Assembly (NCBI GenBank): GCA_030696775.1
Contig: JAUYRN010000031.1
Coordinates: 248,001 to 312,000, forward strand
Length of the DNA stretch: 64,000 nucleotides
Direction: 5' to 3'
Origin: Sulfuricurvum sp.
GTDB lineage: Bacteria; Campylobacterota; Campylobacteria; Campylobacterales; Sulfurimonadaceae
Position numbers and translations under genes: made by a program. Position 1 is the stretch's first letter; the number at the start of each line of letters is the position of its first letter. This document shows, piece by piece, positions 28,671-36,330 of this stretch. The notes beneath the pieces are model-generated. The model was not told the DNA's origin and did no database searches. It worked only from the letters and a program-made list of their open reading frames with translations.

Positions 28671-30476
28671 ATGATCGACATAATACGTTCCCTTCCTCAC
28701 AATGCAGGAATTTACCAGTACCTTGATCCAAAAGGGCGGATTCTTTATATTGGTAAAGCAAAAGACCTATCAAAACGGGTCAAAAGCTATTTTAACCTTA
28801 CTCCAACACTCCAGCCAAAATCAACCTTATCATTGCGCATCCAAAAAATGCTCTCCGAAACCGTATCTCTCCACTACATTGTCGTTGAAAACGAGCACGA
28901 TGCTCTGATCCTTGAAAACTCTCTTATCAAACAACTCGCCCCACGATACAATGTTCTTTTACGCGATGATAAAACCTACCCTTATATTTATGTAGATTTA
29001 AATGACACCTACCCTCGTTTTGACATTACACGTAAGATTATCACCGGTAAAAATGTTCGCTATTTTGGTCCATTTTCCACGGGTGCTCGTGATATTCTCG
29101 ATTCACTGTACGAAATACTCCCTTTGGTACAAAAAAAAAGTTGCTTAAAAGGAAAAAAAGCCTGCCTCTTTTATCAAATGCATCAATGCCTTGGACCTTG
29201 TGAATTTCCGGTTAACACAACCTATTATAAAGAGCTTGTTGATACCGCAATATCCTGGATTCAAAACAAAAATCTTCTCCTTCCGAAACTTACTGAAAAA
29301 ATGGAATTTTATGCTGAAGAACTTCGTTTTGAAGAGGCAATGCAGCTTCGTGACAGACGTGAGCGCATCGAAAAAAGCTGTGTCACTTCCACCATCGATC
29401 TTGCCCGAAATGTAGCGTATGATATTTTTGCCATTGCCACGCTCAAAGAGCGCGGATGCATCGTACGAATGTTTATACGTGATGGAAAAGTAGCTTCCAG
29501 TTCGCATGACTTTTTCACAGCACACGAAGATTTTTCTCTTGATGAGGGATATGAGCGTGCATTGGTTAATTATTATGGGACGGTCAAGCCGCCGATTATC
29601 GTTCCGATTTTAACGGCACACTCTTTTGAAGAAAAAGGGTGGATTGAAGATCATCTGAGCATTGTATTTGAAAAGAAAGCCCTTCTTGAAGCTCCCCAAA
29701 AAGGGATCAAAAAGCAGCTTGTCACCCTCGCCCTTACCAATGCCCAAGAGCTTCTCAAAACACATAAATCCAACAATAGCGATATATTAGCATCACTAAA
29801 AGAACTTTTCTCGCTCCAAAACTTCCCCAATCGAATTGAAACTTTCGATAACTCTCATTTAGGAGGTGTTGCAACCGTAGGAGCAATGGTTGTCTATCAA
29901 GATGGAGTATTTGAAAAAAGTTCTTACCGTCAATACCATCTGCACGAACGGGATGAATACGGACAAATGCGTGAAATGCTCACTCGCCGAATCGAGAGTT
30001 TTTCTACCAATCCACCTCCTGATTTATGGGTGCTTGACGGTGGGACAACCTTGCGTACGCTTGCCACAGATTTACTGCAATCATCCGGAACGAGTTTGGA
30101 CGTAATCGCTATCAGCAAAGAAAAATTAGATGCCAAATCACATCGAGCCAAAGGGTCTGCTCGTGATAGTATTCATACTAAAAACGAAACATACACATTA
30201 GAACCCTACGATAAACGCCTACAATTCGTACAGCTTTTACGTGACGAAGCACACCGAAGTGCCATCACTTTTCACAAAAAAACCAAACTAAAACAGGATC
30301 AAGAATCAAAATTTCTTTCCCAAAAAGGGATAACTCTCCCTAAAATTATTAAATTATTGGACTATTATGGTACTTTTGAAGCAGTCAAAAATGGTACTTT
30401 TGAAACCCTTAATGAACTAATTGGAACAAAAGATGCCAAAATTATTCAAAATTTATCACAATCAGATACAAACTAA
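28671..30476 (+). CDS. uvrC: Excinuclease ABC subunit C
   Basis: GIYQYLDPKGRILYIGKAKDLSKRVKSYF (GIY-YIG), UVR motif, FDNSHLGG, C-terminal HhH. Confidence 0.97.
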   Translation: MIDIIRSLPHNAGIYQYLDPKGRILYIGKAKDLSKRVKSYFNLTPTLQPKSTLSLRIQKMLSETVSLHYIVVENEHDALILENSLIKQLAPRYNVLLRDDKTYPYIYVDLNDTYPRFDITRKIITGKNVRYFGPFSTGARDILDSLYEILPLVQKKSCLKGKKACLFYQMHQCLGPCEFPVNTTYYKELVDTAISWIQNKNLLLPKLTEKMEFYAEELRFEEAMQLRDRRERIEKSCVTSTIDLARNVAYDIFAIATLKERGCIVRMFIRDGKVASSSHDFFTAHEDFSLDEGYERALVNYYGTVKPPIIVPILTAHSFEEKGWIEDHLSIVFEKKALLEAPQKGIKKQLVTLALTNAQELLKTHKSNNSDILASLKELFSLQNFPNRIETFDNSHLGGVATVGAMVVYQDGVFEKSSYRQYHLHERDEYGQMREMLTRRIESFSTNPPPDLWVLDGGTTLRTLATDLLQSSGTSLDVIAISKEKLDAKSHRAKGSARDSIHTKNETYTLEPYDKRLQFVQLLRDEAHRSAITFHKKTKLKQDQESKFLSQKGITLPKIIKLLDYYGTFEAVKNGTFETLNELIGTKDAKIIQNLSQSDTN

Positions 30477-30551
30477 GAATTCTTTTACCTTCTTTATGCC
30501 ATATTCTTTAAATTATATTTATCAGTATTTTTTTAGCTAAGGAGATGAATT

Positions 30552-30965
30552 ATGGAAAGACCCGTTGCAGTCGATGAAGAATACTTTTTTGAAGGACGTG
30601 CCATCGTCAGTGAAACGGACTTAGACGGAGTTATTACTTTTGCTAATCGTCGATTTTGTGAAATATCCGGTTACACTACAAGTGAACTCGTTGGTCAACC
30701 CCACAATATCATTCGTCATCCCGATATGCCAAAAGCTGCGTTTGCTCAAGTATGGAGAACCATTCAATCCGGAACGATTTGGCATGGTTTAGTCAAAAAT
30801 CTACGAAAAGATGGTAAATTTTATTGGGTAGACACCGAAGTCTCTCCTATATATGATAACAATGGTATTGTCAAAGGATATATGGCCGCTCGAAAACCTG
30901 CATCTCGTAAAAATATTGAAGAAACTGCCGAGATTTATAAAAAAATGATTGAGCAAGAAAGCTAA
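30552..30965 (+). CDS. PAS domain sensor protein (Aer/CetB-like)
   Basis: RAIVSETDLDGVITFANRRFCEISGYTTSELVGQPHNIIRHPDMPKAAFAQVWRTIQSGTIWHGLVKNLRKDGKFYWVDTEVSPIYD. Confidence 0.9.
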   Translation: MERPVAVDEEYFFEGRAIVSETDLDGVITFANRRFCEISGYTTSELVGQPHNIIRHPDMPKAAFAQVWRTIQSGTIWHGLVKNLRKDGKFYWVDTEVSPIYDNNGIVKGYMAARKPASRKNIEETAEIYKKMIEQES

Positions 30966-30976
30966 AGGGAGAAAAC

Positions 30977-32605
30977 GTGTTACTATACAATCACAAACAA
31001 GAGTTTATCGGTATTGACGAAGAAGGCTTACGTCTCCTTAACTATGCCACGCTGGATGAACTTCTCAATGTTTGCTCGGACGTTGCCGATTTGTTTGCCA
31101 ATGAACCGGGATACATTCATAATTTTAAAAATTTCGGTTGGATCAATTTTCTTCTACATGCAGACTCAGATGCAGCTAGTGCTATTGTTCACGCTAATGG
31201 GCGTGTATTTAGCTGTAAACTTATCGTTAGTAAAATGTATCTTTGTGAAAACCCTTCTCAAAATGGCTATAACATTGAGATGTCCCAAATTAAAGCCATT
31301 AGCGGTGAAGATGTTAAACCGCATATTATTGCTCAAAAAACCCACAAAAATGAGTTTGTTGCCCATAAAAATGAATCTCACTACGAAAGTAAGCCATCGC
31401 CTTTACCTGATTACTCTCACATTGCCCCAATAAAACTTAGTGAACCAGGAGTCTTAGATATCCCAGACATTGAGTCTTCTTCGTTGGATGAAATTGATGA
31501 TATGTATCCGGATCTGGGTAGAGAAATTGAAGTATCTCATTTTAAAGAAATACTTAAAGAACCAGGCATTGAAGCCACTCCTCTAAAAGCTCCTTCAATG
31601 CCTGGAAGTGCTAAATACAGTGCTCAAGAAAAAGAATTTATCTCTCATCACAAAGTAAAAAACGACTACTCATATGATCCCCATGTAGCTTCTAATGAAC
31701 TTGGGCTACCAGTTGACCTCATAGAAGAGTTTATTGGTGATTTTATTCAGCAGTCGCTCGACTTTAAAGCAGACCTCTTTGAAGCAGCTTTGAAAAATGA
31801 TTTTAATAATTTACATATTTTATCCCATAAGCTGAAAGGGGTAGCCGCTAATCTTCGAATTGAAGATGCTTTTGAGACACTGAGCTTTATCAATGCTTCA
31901 ACCGATCTTACAGAAATCGAAGCAAATCTCAAATATTACTTTGAGATTATTTCAAAACTCTCTGGAGAAGAGATTGTTCAAGAGAACACAACAAGTGAAA
32001 CATTGGAGATTCAAAGCAATGCTAATACACCGGTTCTTCCAGACGAAAAACCTTCTGCTGTTGCAAATGAAGTAGTTGAAGACATTTACTCCTTTGGACT
32101 TAAGCAGTACGATAATGAATCACTTATTGTTCATGAGGAAGAGATAGCCTCCCCTGAAGAACTTCTCGCACCATTACCTCACAAAGAAAATATATTTAAA
32201 AAAGATTTACTGGATCTTGAAAATATTACCACTGAATCAGAACCTGAAACAGATGTTCAGGTAATAAAAGAAGAAATCAATGAAAATCCTGTAGCAAAAC
32301 TACCTCAATTTCATTACGATTCTCAAAGTGCAGCAAGGGAATTAGGAATGGAAAAAAGTTTTTTTGATGAGTTGCTTTTTGATTATAAAACTGATGCTAA
32401 TCTCATCAGCAATCAAATCACTCAAGCTATTATTGCTTTTGACACCCATACATGGAGAGCTAGTGCAGCTAAACTCAAAGGAATTAGTGATAACCTTCGT
32501 ATGAACGAAATTTCTGAAGAGCTTGCAATTTTGTCAAAAACAAACGATGCACAAGAAGCTAAAAAAGCTTCTGCGCGACTTAACAACTATCTCGATCAAC
32601 TTTAA
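30977..32605 (+). CDS. PAS-like / dual HPt-domain protein (one canonical, one lacking His)
   Basis: GTG start; HPt1 LHILSHKLKGVAANLRI; HPt2-like WRASAAKLKGISDNLRM; acidic linker between them. Confidence 0.75.
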   Translation: MLLYNHKQEFIGIDEEGLRLLNYATLDELLNVCSDVADLFANEPGYIHNFKNFGWINFLLHADSDAASAIVHANGRVFSCKLIVSKMYLCENPSQNGYNIEMSQIKAISGEDVKPHIIAQKTHKNEFVAHKNESHYESKPSPLPDYSHIAPIKLSEPGVLDIPDIESSSLDEIDDMYPDLGREIEVSHFKEILKEPGIEATPLKAPSMPGSAKYSAQEKEFISHHKVKNDYSYDPHVASNELGLPVDLIEEFIGDFIQQSLDFKADLFEAALKNDFNNLHILSHKLKGVAANLRIEDAFETLSFINASTDLTEIEANLKYYFEIISKLSGEEIVQENTTSETLEIQSNANTPVLPDEKPSAVANEVVEDIYSFGLKQYDNESLIVHEEEIASPEELLAPLPHKENIFKKDLLDLENITTESEPETDVQVIKEEINENPVAKLPQFHYDSQSAARELGMEKSFFDELLFDYKTDANLISNQITQAIIAFDTHTWRASAAKLKGISDNLRMNEISEELAILSKTNDAQEAKKASARLNNYLDQL

Positions 32606-32616
32606 GAGGAACAACC

Positions 32617-35600
32617 ATGACTTTAGGACTTAAAAATCGACTTCGCCTCATCAGTCTCCTTCCGATTCTGATTTTGTTTTCGCTTGCTAGTTATTATGTT
32701 TATACGTCGTACTTGAGCTTTCAATCGGCCCAAACACTTCAATCACGCCTCGAAGAGAATAAACAGCTTAATGACTTAATTAATAATATTTCCCGCGAAC
32801 GCGGTATGACCGTGATGTATTTGGGTAATGCATCCGCTACAACGCTAGCTTCTCTAAAAGCTCAACGTGCCATTGTTGATCAAAAGATCAAAGCCTTTGA
32901 TACAAGCTATACTTCACCTAAAACTACCGCCATGATCGCAGCATTGGAAAAAGCGCGACACCAATCAAAACCTTCTGTCGATAATCAAACGGCTGATTTT
33001 AATGAAATTTTTGATGATGTCTATGGAAAATCACAAACAGCATTGATTGGTGAACTCTCCTCACTAGCAGCTCTCCAACTAGATGACCAAGTTTCCGCTA
33101 TGGAGAACAGCTACCTTTCTTTAGTGCGTGCCAATGAGCACACCAGTTTAGAGCGTGACTATATTACCTATATTCTCTCCCGCGGAACTGCATTAGAAGA
33201 CGAAGAACTCAACCGATGGCTTAGTTTTGTTGCAAAAGCTGATGCATTAAATTTTGATTCTATTGTCAATAAACCTTTGCGTGATTCCTTAAATACTTCT
33301 CTTTTCACCGAGGACAATACAGAATTATTTCAAGACATTACTGCGGAGCGCGGTGTTATTTTGCGAACAGGCAGTGATGCAACGTATGAAACGAAATCAG
33401 GTATCTGGTTTGCTATGCTTTCTGAAAAAATCAATGCTATCAGTGAAACTGAAAAAATTCTGCTCGACAGCATGGATACACGTGCAAGTGTGATTAAAAC
33501 TCAAGCCATACAGCTCCTTATTAGTACGATTACCGTGTGGTTAGTATCCGTTTTACTTGGTATATTAGGATACTTGCTTTCCAATGAAATTGCAAAAAAT
33601 ATTAAAAATCTTGAATCCGTTCTTAAGCGTGTTGCTGAAGATACACACGATAATGAAGCGGATGCTCTGAGCAAGTCCATCAACCTTGATACTTCAGCGG
33701 GTACAGCACAAGCCTATGCCCTCTTAGAACGTATTATCGAACAGACACTTGGTGATAAACAATTTGCACAAGAAGCCAGTGAAGCAAAATCAATGTTCTT
33801 GGCAAATATGTCTCATGAAATTCGAACACCGCTTAATGGAATTGTTGGATTTACGGAACTTCTCAAAGATACTGAACTCCATGATGAACAACGAGAGTTT
33901 ATTGATATTATCGAAAAAAGTTCTGAGAATCTTCTTGAAATTATCAATAATATCCTTGACCTCTCTAAAATTGAAAGTAATAAACTTGAAATTGAAGACA
34001 TCGCCTTTAATCCTATGGATGAGTTTGAAAGCGCTGTTGAAGTGTATGCAGTTCGTGCTTCTGAAAAACACATTGACCTTGGTTGTTTCATTGACCCAAG
34101 TCTTGAGCGCCCACTCAAAGGAGACCCGACCAAAATAAAAGAAGTTATTATTAATCTTCTTAGTAATGCGGTCAAATTTACCAATAGTGGCGGTTCAGTT
34201 AACGTTGATGTTCGCCGTATCGAATCAGAAGAACCTAATCGTGCACGCGTTCGCTTCCAAGTCAAAGACAGTGGTATCGGTATCACCAGTGAGCAAAAAT
34301 CCCGTATTTTTGAAGCATTTGGTCAAGCAGATACGTCCATTACTCGCAAATACGGAGGAACAGGTCTTGGTCTTACCATTTCCAGTCGTTTTGTTGAGCT
34401 TATGGGTGGAAAACTCGACCTTGAAAGTCAACCAGGAGATGGAACAACATTCTTCTTCGTACTATCATTTGATGAGATTGAAACACTGAACGAACCAGTC
34501 AAAGGTTCGTTCTCTAATATCAACGCAGTGATTCATGAAAGCAAAACAAAGAAAAAACTGCAAAGTACCTATCTCAAAGAGTATCTTGATTATCTTGGTG
34601 TAAGCTACACCACATTTACTGAGATTGAAGAATTAAGAATATTAGAACGCCAAGTAAACTATGATCTTCTCTTTGTTGACAACGATTTCACTGATGATGA
34701 TGGTCTCATTTCATTTGCTTCGGCCAATGAACAAACTGTTCTGATTACCAAATCGTATTACATGAAAAAAATCGATTCGATGGGTCTTGATTTATTCAAA
34801 GTTCTTTATGAGCCATTAAACAGTTCAAAAATACGTGCTGTATTGGAATCGTACGATGCAGAAGCATTTAATACGCGTAAACAAAAAACGTCACGACGTA
34901 AAAAGTTTGATGAAAAGAATTCCCGTTTTGCTGCCAATGTTCTAGTAGCAGAAGACAATGTTATTAACCAAAAACTGATCAAACGTACATTAGAAGATTT
35001 AGGACTAACCGTAACTCTTGCAAACAATGGGCTTGAAGCGTTTGAAAAACGTAAAAATGGAGAATTCGATCTCATTTTCATGGATATTCAAATGCCTGTA
35101 CTTGATGGCTTGGAAGCAACACAAGAAATTTTGGACTTCGAAGAGGACTATGATCAACACCATACTCCGATTATTGCACTTACAGCGAATGCGCTGAAAG
35201 GTGACCGTGAGCGTTTTATGGCTGCAGGAATGGATGAATACACAACTAAACCATTGGTTCGCAGTGATATTATTGCTTTGCTCAATAATTTTCTTTCTCA
35301 TAAAATTATTGATTTAAATATTATCCCTAAATCCGCTGATGAGCTTGTCGGATATAACGATACCAATGAGAGTAATGCAAGCAATGATAGAGAAGAAATA
35401 ATTCAAATCAAACCTCTATACGAAGAGGTACTTGTTGAAAACACTTTGATGGATGATAAATTAGAGATTACTACAACTACCAATGAGGAAGTCAAGATTG
35501 AAAGTAATAATGATGAAACTCTTGCAGTTGAGAGTGTCACAGAAACTTTAGAATCCGGTGAAGCTCCTACTATGCACGAGTCTGTATATGATGCTGATAT

Positions 35601-35937
35601 TTTGATAGCAAAACAAAGCTCACTAGAAATGAAGCTCTTTACCCGTATTCTTGATGATCTGGGCTATACCTATGTCAGTGTAAACAATGTAGATGAACTC
35701 TACTCAAATGTACAAAACAAGCGATATAAGGTTGCATTATTTGATAAAGGACTAGCGAGTCTTAATCTAAAAGAACTCTCTGATATAATTCGTGAAAATG
35801 ATAGTGATATTTCTTTGATTATGCTGGTTGATCCATCACTAGATAATGATAAGAACGATACGCTTTATGTCCATGAGATGATTAAAAATATTGTTAATAA
35901 AGACTTATTACGTCTTGTGTTTGAAAAATTTATCTAA
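32617..35937 (+). CDS. Hybrid sensor histidine kinase with canonical REC and additional REC-like regions
   Basis: NIT-like periplasmic region (ISRERGMTVMYLGN), SHEIRTPLNGIVGF H-box, N/G boxes (LLSNAVKFT, GTGLGL), REC VLVAEDNVINQKLIKRTL..LIFMDIQMPVLDG. Confidence 0.93.
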   Translation: MTLGLKNRLRLISLLPILILFSLASYYVYTSYLSFQSAQTLQSRLEENKQLNDLINNISRERGMTVMYLGNASATTLASLKAQRAIVDQKIKAFDTSYTSPKTTAMIAALEKARHQSKPSVDNQTADFNEIFDDVYGKSQTALIGELSSLAALQLDDQVSAMENSYLSLVRANEHTSLERDYITYILSRGTALEDEELNRWLSFVAKADALNFDSIVNKPLRDSLNTSLFTEDNTELFQDITAERGVILRTGSDATYETKSGIWFAMLSEKINAISETEKILLDSMDTRASVIKTQAIQLLISTITVWLVSVLLGILGYLLSNEIAKNIKNLESVLKRVAEDTHDNEADALSKSINLDTSAGTAQAYALLERIIEQTLGDKQFAQEASEAKSMFLANMSHEIRTPLNGIVGFTELLKDTELHDEQREFIDIIEKSSENLLEIINNILDLSKIESNKLEIEDIAFNPMDEFESAVEVYAVRASEKHIDLGCFIDPSLERPLKGDPTKIKEVIINLLSNAVKFTNSGGSVNVDVRRIESEEPNRARVRFQVKDSGIGITSEQKSRIFEAFGQADTSITRKYGGTGLGLTISSRFVELMGGKLDLESQPGDGTTFFFVLSFDEIETLNEPVKGSFSNINAVIHESKTKKKLQSTYLKEYLDYLGVSYTTFTEIEELRILERQVNYDLLFVDNDFTDDDGLISFASANEQTVLITKSYYMKKIDSMGLDLFKVLYEPLNSSKIRAVLESYDAEAFNTRKQKTSRRKKFDEKNSRFAANVLVAEDNVINQKLIKRTLEDLGLTVTLANNGLEAFEKRKNGEFDLIFMDIQMPVLDGLEATQEILDFEEDYDQHHTPIIALTANALKGDRERFMAAGMDEYTTKPLVRSDIIALLNNFLSHKIIDLNIIPKSADELVGYNDTNESNASNDREEIIQIKPLYEEVLVENTLMDDKLEITTTTNEEVKIESNNDETLAVESVTETLESGEAPTMHESVYDADILIAKQSSLEMKLFTRILDDLGYTYVSVNNVDELYSNVQNKRYKVALFDKGLASLNLKELSDIIRENDSDISLIMLVDPSLDNDKNDTLYVHEMIKNIVNKDLLRLVFEKFI

Positions 35938-35952
35938 ATCAGGAACCTATAA

Positions 35953-36330
35953 ATGGATGTAAAAAAACTTAAAGTTTTAGCAGTAGATGATGATTTAATC
36001 AACTTAAAACTGTTAAAATCAATGCTTATGAAGTCGCCTAATGTAGCACAAGTTATAGAAGCAAAAAATGGTGCTGATGCTATCGGTATTCTCAAATCAC
36101 AAGATGATATTGACATCATTCTACTCGACATTATCATGCCAGTAATGGGTGGTATCGAGATGCTTAAAGTCATCCGTGCAGATGATTCACTACGTCAACT
36201 TCCAGTGATTGTTCTTACAACGGATGAGACTAAAAAAGGTGAAGCATTGGATTGCGGAGCAAACGGTTTTCTAATGAAACCCATCCGTGAAAAAGATGTA
36301 GTTTCTAAAATAGCACAACTCACTATATAA
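35953..36330 (+). CDS. Stand-alone response regulator receiver
   Basis: VLAVDDDLINLKLLKSMLMKS ... IDIILLDIIMPVMGG ... VIVLTTDETKKGEALDCGANGFLMKPI. Confidence 0.93.
   Translation: MDVKKLKVLAVDDDLINLKLLKSMLMKSPNVAQVIEAKNGADAIGILKSQDDIDIILLDIIMPVMGGIEMLKVIRADDSLRQLPVIVLTTDETKKGEALDCGANGFLMKPIREKDVVSKIAQLTI

Follow-up and report, generated by a model that had tools for sequence, protein, structure and literature searches.

A His-less HPt domain beside an active HPt in a Sulfuricurvum PAS-HPt protein: a likely docking domain

Pseudo-HPts, in which an HPt domain lacks the phosphorylatable His, are already known from AHP6, FimL, ChpA and the CheA3 of Rhodobacter sphaeroides. AHP6 (APHP1) of Arabidopsis is a separate plant pseudo-HPt with Asn at the phosphorylation site, and it competes with active HPts (PMC7402358). 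Hpt domains without the His are rare, accounting for 90 of 10,312 sampled (0.9%; PMC12632262), and the role of the bacterial ones has been stated as undetermined (PMC10542144). A literature search that took in few subscription journals found no account of a Campylobacterota protein of the kind described below, though CheO (PMC9665402) surfaced in it. What is new at this locus is the order-wide recurrence of an HPt docking face without its nucleophile, accompanied in the same polypeptide by a live HPt and, in the kinase, by a candidate dead-receiver partner that is co-lost with it.

The locus lies in a window of 64,000 nucleotides from Sulfuricurvum sp., by which we mean the whole stretch of DNA analysed. 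An operon running from uvrC through a PAS gene, a PAS-(HPt)n gene and a NIT hybrid kinase gene to a receiver gene (28671-36330) is strongly conserved, and the signalling genes are found beside uvrC across much of the order for no evident functional reason. Its features in the window are as follows.

28671..30476, + strand: uvrC, the conserved operon neighbour
30552..30965, + strand: upstream single-PAS protein of 137 aa (PAS_3, 5e-18), adjoining the PAS-HPt gene in most relatives
30977-32605, + strand: open reading frame of the PAS-HPt protein, 542 aa, GTG start
30977..31312, + strand: PAS-like N-terminal domain, residues ~1-112 (from secondary structure, pLDDT ~88 and Foldseek)
31661..31972, + strand: HPt1, of active type, His284 codon at 31826-31828
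31973..32308, + strand: acidic disordered linker, residues 333-444 (from pLDDT, composition and a dN/dS of 0.41)
32309..32602, + strand: HPt2, a His-less HPt, Ala498 codon at 32468-32470, with K501, G502, D505 and N506 retained
32617..35937, + strand: hybrid histidine kinase with NIT sensor, HisKA (His400), HATPase and three receiver-like domains; BarA-like core
34510..34881, + strand: RECa, a degenerate receiver, Lys replaced by Glu in 50/51 of the family
34936..35292, + strand: RECb, a canonical receiver, five active-site residues present in 81/81
35596..35934, + strand: RECc, a pseudo-receiver, with Lys-Gln (35611-35616) standing where receivers have the Mg-binding acidic pair
35953..36330, + strand: stand-alone CheY-like receiver with a canonical active site

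In the full-length AlphaFold model of the PAS-HPt protein, the PAS-like domain (residues ~1-112), HPt1 (235-328) and HPt2 (449-541) are folded, while residues 336-438 are disordered with a pLDDT below 50. An earlier note on this DNA, made from the sequence alone, had described two HPt-like domains separated by a long acidic linker, and the linker is indeed both: residues 333-444 hold 26 D/E vs 7 K/R in 112 aa and lie mostly below a pLDDT of 50. Absent from that note was the PAS-like domain, for which a Foldseek search with the full-length model returned, among others, LOV/PAS structures, and which is conserved order-wide, with profile matches in other families. The motif LSHKLKG of HPt1 starts at residue 282, so that its His is residue 284; SAAKLKG of HPt2 starts at residue 496, which makes Ala498 the aligned residue. 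The note had read the second site correctly, with Ala in place of His and KLKG retained.

Several lines of evidence bear on whether HPt2 folds as an HPt bundle, a point on which the note had staked its proposal. Profile-profile comparison with hhalign aligns HPt1 with HPt2 at 99.5% (E 4.7e-23), and the local BLOSUM62 score of the pair is 96 against 29 +/- 5.7 for shuffles (z 11.8, 0/2000 as high). Modelled alone with AlphaFold, HPt2 forms five helices with a pLDDT of 96.5, and its best folds in the PDB are all HPts, namely those of C. thermophilum (TM 0.86), Shewanella (0.77) and E. coli BarA (0.73). HPts also rank first when the HPt2 family profile is compared with PDB sequences. Pfam Hpt (PF01627) matches 24/41 HPt2 domains, the best at 1.6e-8; the window's own HPt2, searched alone, gave no Pfam Hpt match. 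By sequence and predicted fold, HPt2 is a genuine HPt.

Within the window's family, Sulfurimonadaceae, the gene was matched in 145/151 genomes, and the named relatives are mostly Sulfuricurvum. Sequence variance was read from an alignment of 71 proteins including that of the window. The phosphorylatable His that marks a phosphotransfer-competent HPt is present in HPt1 of 71/71 orthologues and in HPt2 of 0/70 (one contig-truncated row being omitted from all HPt2 counts), so none of these orthologues keeps the residue, whose retention would have counted against the note. Since HPt2 has the fold and sequence of an HPt but lacks the residue that defines phosphotransfer, it can be classed as a pseudo-HPt; like AHP6, it combines the HPt fold and a replaced His with retained partner-facing residues. 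In HPt1, the stretch LSHKLKGVAANLR (31820-31858), 13 consecutive residues, is invariant in 71/71 proteins from many genera, which is unusually strict for an HPt.

The position of the lost His is among the freer ones of HPt2. It is occupied by A in 17 proteins, S in 14, L in 9, I in 8, T in 8 and F in 5, with others including Val, Met, Arg and Lys, and it ranks 77th of 101 columns by entropy. Around it, Lys is retained at H+3 in 67/70, Gly at H+4 in 67/70, D/E at H+7 in 70/70 and Asn at H+8 in 69/70, and all four positions are in the top six conserved. The Lys at H+3 and the Gly at H+4 of Ypd1 line a channel formed with the receiver (PMC6341664), and the conserved face of HPt2 made up of H+3, H+4, H+7 and H+8 is, judged by these positions, the receiver-binding face. 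Median dN/dS is 0.058 for the PAS domain, 0.070 for HPt1, 0.097 for HPt2, and 0.31 and 0.41 for the linkers. Together with the residue conservation, these values show that the nucleophile of HPt2 has been given up while its docking face remains under selection.

Two other readings of HPt2 can be judged on the same data. One holds that it is the remnant of a duplication and is decaying, and HPt2 does diverge faster than HPt1 (mean distance 1.43 vs 0.50). A dN/dS of 0.10, near-invariant surface residues and the presence of dead HPts in about nine families nevertheless contradict decay; we rejected the relic on the selection test and give it almost no credence. The other holds that HPt2 is phosphorylated on Ser or Thr instead of His, a possibility also weighed for ChpA and its His-less Hpts. 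Ser or Thr does stand at the acceptor site in 22/70 orthologues, but only in those; the rest carry Ala, Leu, Ile, Phe, Val, Met, Arg, Lys or others, the window has Ala, and the site keeps no conserved residue type of any kind, for which reason an alternative phosphorylatable residue was rejected. The His-less Hpts of ChpA were, moreover, unphosphorylated in vitro (PMC10542144), and we find this reading scarcely credible.

The conserved docking face turns attention to the receivers encoded next door. In the kinase, the HisKA His is retained in 81/81 sequences. On its sequence RECc is a receiver domain, the second Response_reg stretch in the kinase, and it lacks active-site residues as pseudo-receivers do. 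Its first acidic residue is replaced by Lys in 51/51 kinases of the family, in 27/30 outside it, and in nearly all relatives with a dead HPt; the second acidic position is Lys or Gln in most, with Lys-Lys in most relatives, and the Asp is retained. This RECc, with Lys-Lys or Lys-Gln and a retained Asp, occurs almost order-wide (kinases of L031-L155). It is an unusual pseudo-receiver, since among pseudo-receivers in general only ~20% have a non-acidic residue at the first acidic position (PMC12632262).

Across the order, a match to the protein is present in 100/160 genomes, and His-less HPts occur in the PAS-HPt protein of about nine families (families, loci and genomes are referred to below by our own f, L and G numbers), sometimes without any active HPt. 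In f1 and f15 the architecture is PAS, live HPt, dead HPt, and in f18 it is PAS, one or two live HPts, dead HPt. A single dead HPt with no live one in the PAS-HPt protein is found in f7, f20, f22 and f10; f23 has a dead HPt, and no kinase was found in the stretch read; f16 has a live HPt only. A search of four f20 genomes revealed no HPt1-like domain outside this protein, and the operon is absent beside uvrC in the checked genomes of f9, f11 and f14. A tree of 94 HPt domains was too poorly resolved to count the origins of the dead HPts, be it one or several. A scan of the operon for promoters and terminators gave nothing clearly above shuffles.

Other arrangements were met along the way. In f4 (L120-L124, L152) the order is reversed, to PAS, dead HPt, live HPt. 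The f6 protein has a live HPt, and in some members (L147:4681-5991, L148:4755-6017, L184, L185) there is also a more degenerate first copy that has decayed by another route: this first of two HPts is without the H+3 Lys and H+4 Gly, and from one member to the next it has either His or another residue at the site. At L059 one locus encodes the PAS-HPt1 part and the dead HPt in two different reading frames, an apparent split that may be an assembly error. In G019 (L195:1669-2634) the kinase orthologue and HPt2 are lost, and a shortened PAS-HPt1 gene of 322 aa remains beside uvrC.

Natural variation of this sort can be used to ask which kinase domain goes with HPt2. As a measure of RECc integrity we took the RECc HMM score over that of the kinase core plus RECb. 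In a first comparison, with two contig-truncated rows omitted, it was 0.115-0.20 in relatives with a docking-competent dead HPt vs 0.034-0.084 in those without (f6, f16, L133). A written prediction was then checked on fresh genomes of the same families, which gave 0.116-0.163 with a dead HPt vs 0.018-0.083 without. The exception among the fresh genomes is L193, with a good RECc and no HPt detected; in L192 the H+3 Lys of the dead HPt is lost, and in L181 the kinase is incomplete. A further point counts against a tether through RECc, namely that most f6 relatives retain Lys-Lys in an otherwise decayed RECc without having a docking-competent dead HPt.

A natural deletion was found in G095, a complete chromosome (L208:4040-9553), in which the PAS-HPt gene and the RECc of the kinase are both cleanly missing. 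There the kinase gene follows immediately on the upstream PAS gene, and its product stops after RECb with NIT, HisKA, RECa and RECb intact. Among 141 kinase-bearing genomes it is the only surveyed family kinase found without RECc beyond contig-end or frameshift cases; of the other short kinases three were opened, two of which stop at contig ends, and the third (G314) has its RECc in the next reading frame.

On its own, G095 cannot tell which domain RECc binds, because PAS, HPt1 and HPt2 were all lost together. It would fit equally with a partnership between RECc and the PAS domain or HPt1, in which HPt2 is otherwise employed and the RECc of G095 went after the whole protein had gone; the loss of both a recognisable PAS and a docking-competent dead HPt in f6 and f16 leaves room for the same view. 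The remaining families separate the domains. RECc is retained in f20, f7 and f22, where the live HPt is absent, and it has decayed in L133 and L175, which keep the PAS domain and two live HPts and whose third HPt is without docking residues. Retention without HPt1 in f20 and f7, set beside decay with PAS kept in L133 and L175, makes HPt2 the most consistent partner of RECc, and we consider a PAS or HPt1 partnership very improbable. Taken with the joint absence of the kinase and HPt2 in G019, the co-loss comparisons, which cover few events, most of them not phylogenetically independent, and which serve an idea formed post hoc, point to HPt2-RECc rather than to HPt1-RECc or PAS-RECc.

Other candidates and approaches gave less. 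RECa was rejected as the partner of HPt2, being lowest in f7 despite a dead HPt there and retained in G095. Mirror-tree comparison of domain distances, with UvrC as control, singled out no receiver, HPt2 correlating about equally with everything. Several families with the Lys pair in RECc (f4, f20, f7) have a non-acidic H+7, and for this reason we gave up the idea that a charge match between that pair and the H+7 Asp holds generally.

The earlier note had suggested a decoy or docking pseudo-HPt, and the two halves of that suggestion fare differently: docking is likely, given the conservation pattern and the co-loss with RECc, and a decoy that competes with HPt1 for an active receiver is less likely. 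The decoy is best put as an AHP6-like competitor, in which HPt2 would occupy RECb or the stand-alone receiver and damp the flow of phosphate through HPt1. Retention of receiver-facing residues without the nucleophile is what such a competitor would need, and competition with active HPts for kinases has been reported for AHP6 (PMC7402358). However, some families retain the dead HPt although their PAS-HPt protein offers no active HPt for it to rival, and in the f20 genomes searched no HPt1-like domain turned up elsewhere either. Its presence also tracks RECc, not RECb, which never varies, and we regard competition as rather unlikely.

HPt2 could also be a generic scaffold that dimerises or binds an unrelated protein, as in FimL, and meets no receiver at all. 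In FimL both putative acceptor positions are Gln, and a role in protein interaction has been proposed for it (PMC3019171); bacterial His-less Hpts in general have no established role (PMC10542144). Against this, the face that is conserved in HPt2 is the receiver-binding one, and HPt2 goes together with the kinase operon and with RECc; a scaffold of this kind seems decidedly unlikely.

We propose instead that HPt2, dead for phosphorylation, serves as a docking domain: it would tether the PAS-HPt protein, which would be the phosphotransfer component of a Campylobacterales phosphorelay, to the kinase, most probably through RECc, a reading we hold to be evenly poised. The NIT-domain hybrid kinase would phosphorylate its own receiver RECb, and His284 of HPt1 would take the phosphate from RECb and pass it to the stand-alone receiver, a direction of flow suggested by the established phosphorelay logic of BarA and Sln1-Ypd1. 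HPt2 would grip RECc independently of phosphorylation and so tether the PAS-HPt protein to the kinase, and, with HPt2 still bound, the acidic linker would let HPt1 reach both RECb and the stand-alone receiver. That the dead copy holds the protein on the kinase is the most likely reason why live and dead HPts are kept as a pair across much of the order. A bolder form, which we offer tentatively and doubt slightly more than we believe, is that the pseudo-HPt and the Lys-pair pseudo-receiver are a dedicated pair of dead domains, an order-wide lock and key that tethers the phosphotransfer protein on its kinase. If this is true, the HPt-receiver interface, which is normally transient and catalytic, has been converted into a stable assembly interface.

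In this family selection on the dead HPt is clear, a live HPt in the same polypeptide can serve as control, and both a candidate partner domain and natural deletions are at hand, which makes the function of a dead HPt directly testable. A confirmed tether would show a transient HPt-receiver contact evolving into a permanent assembly contact. Among described systems, the kinase is closest to the BarA/GacS type: its core, with a pseudo-receiver followed by a receiver, aligns with BarA over residues 381-899 (E 6.3e-127). BarA carries its HPt at its own C-terminus, whereas the C-terminus of the present kinase is a Lys-bearing pseudo-receiver and a second protein carries the HPts. Active and His-less Hpts also share one polypeptide in ChpA of P. 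aeruginosa and in CheA3 of Rhodobacter sphaeroides (PMC10542144); both are CheA-type chemosensory proteins, whereas the PAS-HPt protein here is separate and has no kinase core, and its dead HPt is traceable across the order. FimL of P. aeruginosa (PMC3019171), likened here by description only, is likewise a bacterial signalling-pathway protein whose HPt-like domains lack the His, both sites being occupied by Gln, but no active HPt has been described in it and it serves the Chp/cAMP system rather than a NIT hybrid-kinase operon. AHP6 is likewise an HPt protein in which the phospho-His is replaced and partner binding is thought to be retained; in the present case, an active HPt lies in the same chain as the dead one, whose probable partner is a dead receiver.
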